From: Pseudomonadota bacterium
GTDB taxonomy: Bacteria > Pseudomonadota > Gammaproteobacteria > Steroidobacterales > Steroidobacteraceae
DNA length: 64,000 nucleotides
Direction of reading: 5' to 3'
Assembly: GCA_021792755.1 (NCBI GenBank)
Contig: JAJYUA010000007.1
Coordinates: 1-64,000 of the forward strand
The notes beneath the pieces are model-generated. The model searched no databases and was not told the DNA's origin. It worked only from the letters and a program-made list of their open reading frames with translations. The position numbers were made by a program, and so were the translations under genes. Shown here piece after piece: positions 12,447-13,677 of the stretch; position 1 is the first letter of the stretch; the number at the start of each line of letters is the position of its first letter.

Positions 12447-12513
12447 AAGCGTTCCGCAATCGGAGGGCTCATGGGCCGCACCTTCGCTGTGGCAGGATCG
12501 GGATGGCGCCGCA

Positions 12514-13131: not shown

Positions 13132-13181
13132 GGCACCTGCCGGTACTTTTTGTTGTTATCAGGCAACATGATCGAGCATCC

Positions 13182-13209
13182 TTGACGAGTGCGTCAAGAT
13201 GGCTATTAT
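13182..13209 (+). promoter_or_regulatory. predicted sigma-70 promoter of a small RNA
   Basis: TTGACG (13182-13187) and TATTAT (13204-13209) are spaced by 16 bases on the plus strand, downstream of ampD and with no open reading frame behind them. A start site is expected near 13217. The A-rich stretch after it (13221-13230) stands out from the surrounding GC-rich DNA. Confidence 0.55.
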
Positions 13210-13216
13210 TGCTTGC

Positions 13217-13372
13217 ATCGCAAAAAAACAATATCGTTCGGGGACACGCTGACGTGTCCGATAAGCCACAGATGTGAGCTCCCCGGGGGCAGGTGGTCTC
13301 GCGGCGGCCCCGGGGTGCGGGGTATCGAGGGGGGCGGGCAAGGCCGCGTGAGTGATCACGCGGCCTTGTTTT
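13217..13372 (+). ncRNA. candidate structured small RNA, about 155 nt
   Basis: An unassigned transcript is suggested by a promoter at 13182-13209 and a strong intrinsic terminator ending at 13372, with no plausible protein between. The predicted RNA opens with an unpaired A-rich segment. It then forms a hairpin with arms GGACACG/CGTGTCC and loop CTGA (13242-13259). A G/C-rich region that can pair CCCCGGGG blocks follows, and the terminator stem ends it. I compared it by eye with 6S, SRP, tmRNA and GEMM patterns and saw no match. It could also be a leader that ends before yceH. Confidence 0.45.
13340..13372 (+). terminator. intrinsic terminator with 12-base-pair stem
   Basis: Arms AAGGCCGCGTGA (13340-13351) and TCACGCGGCCTT (13356-13367) pair perfectly around a 4-base loop and are followed by GTTTT. 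This is one of the strongest terminator-like hairpins noticed in the window. The stretch 13373-13677 before yceH shows no further gene. Confidence 0.8.
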
Positions 13373-13677
13373 AGGAATGGCCCGAAGCGCTTCGCGCTCA
13401 TTGCACCGCTTCGCTGCCGCGCCGAGCCCTTCAGCGGACTGCCGCCGTCCAGAATCGCTCGCTGCGATTCGGTGAGCGGGGCGGCGCATCGAGTGTCTCT
13501 CCGTGCCGGCCATGCGTGGCGCCTCGAGGCAGGCAAGCCGAGCGAGCGCAGGGCGCGCCCTTATCCGCGCCGCGAGCGGCTGGTGGTTGCACCACCGGGC
13601 GGATCACGCGACCATCGCGCCGTCCGGCGGAAAATCCGGGCTGCACCATCACCCCCCCTCAAGGAGTCGCCACGGTA

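Follow-up and report, generated by a model that had tools for sequence, protein, structure and literature searches.

SgrS, Spot 42 and ChiX are sugar-responsive enterobacterial small RNAs (sRNAs) that stand under carbon-source regulators, and CrfA of Caulobacter crescentus is reportedly linked with TonB-dependent receptors. CrfA is described as a carbon-starvation sRNA (PMC12559287). For LacI-family regulons, a comparative study reports a central CG in the operator for 1173 of 1303 LacI-type factors, which makes this centre usual, not universal, and the term small RNA is absent from its main text (PMC4052901).

Here we describe a predicted sRNA gene from a Steroidobacteraceae genome, which resembles each of these systems in part. 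Like SgrS, Spot 42 and ChiX, it would be a free-standing gene with a Rho-independent terminator, in bacteria where Hfq is present and under a carbon-source regulator (here predicted), but it has no Rfam match, and both the regulator and the seed differ. It would resemble CrfA in being tied to nutrient switching; unlike CrfA, to which no sequence match was seen (the sole Rfam match, at the loci of seven relatives, was to CC2171, another Caulobacter sRNA), the RNA described here has a promoter with the dyad of a putative LacI regulon. This dyad shares with the LacI-family regulons reconstructed in PMC4052901 an even 18-bp palindrome, a site at the regulator's own gene and an association with sugar-related genes, whereas its centre is mostly not CG and the regulon here includes an sRNA. 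New here is the dyad itself, which stands ahead of the -35 hexamer of the sRNA gene and also precedes a LacI-family gene and TonB-receptor genes. With a probability of about 0.62, we read the locus as a stand-alone, clade-specific small regulatory RNA gene within a LacI-type nutrient regulon, controlled through the dyad and most likely acting in trans.

The candidate sRNA gene behind ampD

The features of the locus in the window, i.e., the whole 64,000-nucleotide stretch of DNA that was analysed, are collected in Table 1.

Table 1. Predicted features of the sRNA locus, in positions of the window
Feature	Position	Strand	Basis or remark
Predicted operator, 18-bp dyad TGTTGT-N6-GCAACA	13151..13168	+	One departure from YGTTGC-N6-GCAACR
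-35 hexamer TTGACG	13182..13187	+	Promoter scan; TTGAC in 22/22 loci
-10 hexamer TATTAT	13204..13209	+	Promoter scan; 16-bp spacing in 22/22 loci
Predicted sRNA, 156 nt	13217..13372	+	Start assumed, 8 nt past -10
5′ hairpin GGACACG-CUGA-CGUGUCC	13242..13259	+	Type A only; minimum-energy fold
UCGAGGGGGG element ahead of terminator, candidate seed	13325..13334	+	Loci alignment
Terminator stem-loop, 13 bp, loop GUGA	13339..13368	+	Stem 13339-13351 / 13356-13368
Short U-tail	13369..13372	+	Window sequence

The promoter lies where the original prediction had placed it and matches 10 of the 12 consensus letters. Two promoter-like sites were found between positions 12500 and 14200, compared with a shuffle mean of 0.1; the second overlaps the first on the minus strand. 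The -35 region of the window (13181-13198) is a perfect inverted repeat, CTTGACG-AGTG-CGTCAAG, which gives this minus-strand match and is absent in the loci compared (L022 and L024). The hairpin that had been claimed within a non-coding stretch was recovered together with the terminator stem in the minimum-energy fold (z of -3.78, with 1 of 200 shuffles as good). The claimed intrinsic terminator was also located and shows compensatory changes in relatives of type B (see below), but its stem has 13 rather than 12 base pairs. Only four T follow it (TTTTA), and it was not flagged by a terminator scan; elsewhere, the tail reaches eight T in some type B loci and reads CTTTA in others.

The upstream neighbour is ampD (an NCBIfam equivalog, over the cut-off), and the downstream neighbour encodes a DUF480/YceH-type protein, which is over the Pfam cut-off and scores 281 bits against 321 bits for NCBIfam. 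The position between ampD and yceH thus holds in the window; among relatives, however, the constant link is with ampD, and yceH follows only in the subgroup of the window. As had been predicted, no known RNA family was recognised. The covariance search of the window gave no Rfam match, the region 13140-13400 had none up to an E value of 10, and the best match among the loci of seven relatives (E up to 5) was to CC2171 at chance level, with 19.4 bits against a threshold of 75. A small open-access literature search returned no account of the element by title or abstract among the matches listed. No reading frame is kept across the alignments of the sRNA sequences of either type, and a small ORF was rejected, there being no conserved frame or common peptide; the possibility that the conservation fits a short protein better than a structure, named at the outset as a refuting outcome, was not borne out. 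With a promoter, a terminator, no ORF and no Rfam family, the predicted transcript fits a discrete non-coding transcription unit.

Distribution and conservation of two RNA types

The element occurs as one copy each, behind ampD, in 22 of the 58 genomes of the genus, as found with a covariance model (R1) trained on type B alone (17 sequences). The same 22 carriers were obtained by synteny, out of 52 readable ampD flanks. The ampD gene was found in 55 of the 58 genomes; 52 downstream flanks were fetched, 53 with the window, and G018 was unreadable (N at the spot). The genomes left out of the flank counts are thus the three without an ampD match, G060 and G061 (ampD apparently at or near the contig end) and G018. 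Carriers among the flanks were chosen by the terminator stem, which is present in 22 of 22 by definition, and R1 recovers the same 22. In these genomes, the only other matches of R1 at E up to 1e-5 lie on the reverse strand of the same terminator. A DNA search of 60 genomes (own and relatives) gave a match in 17, mostly to the terminator alone. A pattern scan of contigs gave 18 records, among which L078, L086 and L091 score like L064, L041 and L022 and were omitted from the counts.

Beyond the genus, R1 yielded no convincing copy at E up to 0.01 in 296 genomes of the order, although 12 genomes from outside the genus gave a match. Seven of these 12 matches were inspected and rejected: they had no ampD, yceH or bioA within about 3 kb (tblastn) and, by eye, no TTGAC-16-TAnnnT promoter, the majority being GC-rich terminators where a gene ends. 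A search of 369 genomes of the class, at E up to 1e-6 with stricter Infernal filters, found only the genome of the window. The carriers are related to one another and form a single group known from metagenome assemblies. In G018, whose AmpD is the second closest, an assembly gap of N lies exactly over the sRNA position (L023), and a strong hairpin may have caused the broken assembly.

In 24 of the 30 readable non-carriers, the end of an adenosyltransferase gene on the opposite strand lies at most 350 bases from the ampD stop, whereas among the 22 carriers this gene was seen in six flanks, at distances of 268 and about 1,070-1,090 bases. Since most non-carriers have the adenosyltransferase close to ampD, the sRNA element looks like an insert, and this spacing implies that it occupies a stretch missing from most other members of the genus.

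The 22 sequences are of two types. Type A comprises the window and L022, L024, L026 and L027, in which the 5′ hairpin is present and yceH follows, and type B comprises 17 sequences in which GGAUUGCG is conserved and the 5′ part differs from that of type A, often being shorter; the gene after the sRNA in type B is another plus-strand frame, or nothing stands close. Common to both are promoter, G-run and terminator. The promoter pattern TTGACn-16-TAnnnT is kept in all 22 loci although the RNA body differs between the types. R1, trained on type B, scores the five type A sequences at 53-59 bits, which means that the 3′ part, at the least, is shared between them. Every one of the 22 loci keeps a G-run of five or more, while the UCGA of the seed is lost in L024, L026 and L027, and the seed differs between subtypes.

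Compensatory changes, which had been named as a check, were found in type B, but the covariation in type A is non-significant. In type B, 98.0% of the cells are paired and double changes affect 5 pairs (shuffles: 2.0) and 14 cells (shuffles: 3.0), compared with 30-47% paired and at most 3 double-changed cells in slid structures. These changes lie in the terminator (helix 4, with 98.8% of cells paired and 3 pairs with double changes) and in a small hairpin. In type A, the terminator is invariant except for one pair, and the 5′ hairpin has 7 pairs in the five sequences, two of these pairs having a single unpaired cell each; 46 of 500 shuffles equal its covariation, and the hairpin itself is conserved.

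When the window was set beside L022, L024, L026 and L027, the -35 hexamer was identical (6/6) and the -10 hexamer kept 5/6 letters, with 61-72% identity in the dyad and 38-56% in the promoter spacer. Within the RNA, identity was 59-72% over the first 54 bases, 38-56% in the middle and 80-96% over the last 50 bases. It fell to 25-39% in the 128 bases past the terminator, and the next 177 bases showed 54% for L022 and 16% for the other type A loci. Conserved hexamers and a conserved RNA 3′ part amid diverged surroundings are the pattern of a small RNA gene.

The upstream dyad and a LacI-family regulator

A conserved dyad upstream of the promoter, absent from the original prediction, is the best clue to function. 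With a pattern relaxed so as to take in type A, it is found upstream of the -35 hexamer in all 22 sRNA loci, as an exact YGTTGC-N6-GCAACR in 18, with one departure in the window, L024 and L026 and two in L022. Between its centre and the start of the -35 hexamer there are 24 bp in each of the 17 type B loci, and 21-22 bp in those of type A. The letters of the 6-bp spacer vary between loci, and the centre is CG in only three of the 22.

Across the 22 carrier genomes there are 127 exact dyads, compared with 23 for the reversed pattern, and 91 when 18 sRNA and 18 LacI sites are set aside. Four genomes that have the LacI gene (see below) but no sRNA hold 20 (6 reversed), and 15 genomes with neither the sRNA nor this LacI, including G018 with its unreadable locus, hold 46 (28 reversed). 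The carrier G013 has only its sRNA dyad, against 2 for the control. Two of these 15 genomes, G065 and G077, are rich in dyads (7 in G065 and 8 in G077, with 1 each for the control) though they have neither a close LacI orthologue nor the sRNA, and another regulator may use the same dyad there.

Forty other dyad sites were read in six carriers, three dyads of sRNA genes having been set aside, and 29 of them lie between predicted genes as called by a rough script. In all six genomes, a dyad separates a LacI-family gene from a glycosidase gene with an alpha-amylase domain. Among the matches listed, four of the six have a dyad upstream of a TonB-dependent receptor gene beside a FecR gene, four upstream of a gene for an RRM protein and four beside an XylE-type transporter gene, the neighbour families having been assigned on one member and extended by BLAST. 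Other sites stand at genes for a GlcNAc epimerase and a ROK regulator and at additional genes for TonB receptors or beta-barrel proteins, and one dyad lies at the 3′ end of a gene for a GH30 enzyme.

An orthologue of the LacI-family protein (at least 77% identity) is encoded in 25 of the 58 genomes: 20 of the 22 carriers, compared with four of the 30 readable non-carriers, plus G008, which has no ampD match. The two carriers in which it is missing, G013 and G022, have assemblies that are 75% and 62% complete. A dyad stands upstream of all 25 orthologues (21 exact, four with one mismatch), at 167-197 bases from the aligned LacI start in the carriers and G008 and at 97 bases in the other four, whereas in five more distant homologues that were fetched the best dyad has 2-4 mismatches. 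Hence, the LacI protein is, by inference from these sites, the most likely binder of the dyad. In the LacI tree (midpoint root, with a long-branch warning for G028), the four holders without the sRNA lie outside the carriers, and G008, whose sRNA locus was unseen, lies inside. The tree and the distribution fit a regulator that was there first and an sRNA gained once, though the four sRNA-less holders may instead have lost it.

The loci of these four holders (L169-L172, in G079, G080, G032 and G035) have a further peculiarity: three carry a second exact dyad 3′ of the LacI gene, and in one the only exact dyad stands there. The LacI loci of the carriers have no 3′-side dyad of this kind. In the genome of the window, the LacI match is in two in-frame pieces with 95% and 88% identity (G000:C45:103170-103877; L113:3108-3893, plus strand; L177), and about residues 150-261 (some 110) are lacking in frame. 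This shortened protein keeps the DNA-binding part and the C-terminal end, and the gene of the relatives, e.g., G003 and G066, is full length; the gap is either a real deletion or an assembly error.

Possible function and alternative explanations

Comparison between loci, i.e., at the level of sequence, establishes the predicted gene, its limits and its non-coding nature, as well as the dyad and its sharing with other genes. From these, a mechanism can be proposed. Most simply, the sRNA gene would have been gained once, behind ampD, in one clade of the genus. A transcription factor at the 18-bp dyad would control its promoter, the likeliest candidate being the LacI-family protein with the same dyad at its own gene, whose regulon would comprise TonB-dependent receptors and sugar-related genes. 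That the dyad lies ahead of the -35 hexamer suggests activation. The RNA would stop at its own terminator and most likely act in trans, its G-rich 3′ part (and possibly the type B GGAUUGCG as well) pairing with C-rich stretches of mRNAs, probably with the help of Hfq. A match to Hfq above the cut-off was obtained in all 12 genomes that were searched for it, whether or not they carry the sRNA. As an arm of a nutrient-uptake regulon, the sRNA probably helps to tune nutrient uptake. A more specific version is tentative and, to our mind, doubtful: the LacI protein would activate from the wide-spaced dyad, and its regulon of TonB receptors and sugar genes, with the regulator already there, would once, in one clade, have gained a post-transcriptional arm, a new sRNA family whose sole fixed contact is the run of about six G.

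Scans for targets gave no signal that would single out the carriers. With one mismatch allowed, anti-seed sites numbered 259 in eight carriers (17-47 each), compared with 116 for the reversed control, and 92 in four non-carriers (15-32 each), compared with 35, so that the two groups do not differ. A duplex scan of 173 gene starts in 40 loci, weak in that its windows are long and accessibility is left out, gave a mean z of -0.15 (standard deviation 1.03, lowest -2.5) and no outlier.

Possible, though clearly the less probable course, is that the sRNA is real and its dyad is bound by a different factor, e.g., of the CRP/FNR type, with the LacI gene merely one of the targets. The centre of the dyad is mostly not CG, unlike the LacI-type norm, and so another factor may bind; in addition, it falls some 56 to 59 bases ahead of the assumed start, and dyads are numerous in G065 and G077, where this LacI is missing. 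Placement upstream of the -35 hexamer is a usual position of activators, and the CRP/FNR type uses TTGA-N6-TCAA-like sites. However, of the 26 different neighbour proteins annotated at a selection of sites, no regulator other than LacI has a dyad at its gene in six of six genomes, and all 25 orthologues have the dyad while the five distant homologues do not. Rather unlikely, on balance, is a protein-binding or decoy RNA, whose G-rich part might, for instance, titrate an RNA-binding protein, or which might sponge a C-rich sRNA. Its best-conserved unpaired part is indeed a low-complexity G-run ahead of the terminator, the anti-seed and duplex scans are without signal, and CrfA offers a precedent for an sRNA sponge in carbon starvation (PMC12559287); the GGA motifs, by eye, are nevertheless few and outside hairpin loops.

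That the element is a leader, an attenuator or part of the ampD 3′ UTR with no RNA function of its own is very improbable. It does lie between genes on their strand, with yceH next in type A, but its own promoter is conserved in 22 of 22 loci, the downstream context changes from yceH in type A to another plus-strand frame or nothing close in type B, and the adenosyltransferase near ampD in 24 of the 30 readable non-carriers makes it insert-like. A short protein gene is scarcely conceivable: some type B sequences allow GGGGAUUG to be taken for a start region, but there is no 12-codon frame in L039, L041, L043 and L044, in others the frame runs through the terminator without a stop, in type A the frames move as the G-run varies in length, and there is no common peptide.

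For the preferred reading of a dyad-controlled sRNA, a concrete operator and a candidate regulator are now named, which makes its function testable. If the sRNA was gained once in an existing regulon, the entry of a new sRNA into a circuit becomes directly comparable, since four relatives have the regulator and the operator without the sRNA.

Two further patterns lie in the type B loci. In 11 of the 17 (e.g., L033 and L041), a conserved GGAACT-N15-GTCAAA stands 35-67 bases past the terminator stem and upstream of a plus-strand reading frame; it resembles the promoter consensus of extracytoplasmic-function sigma factors. Type B loci such as L033 also carry a conserved GCAACA half-site that overlaps the assumed start (GATACCAT-N4-GCAACA), possibly a second contact of the dyad-binding factor.
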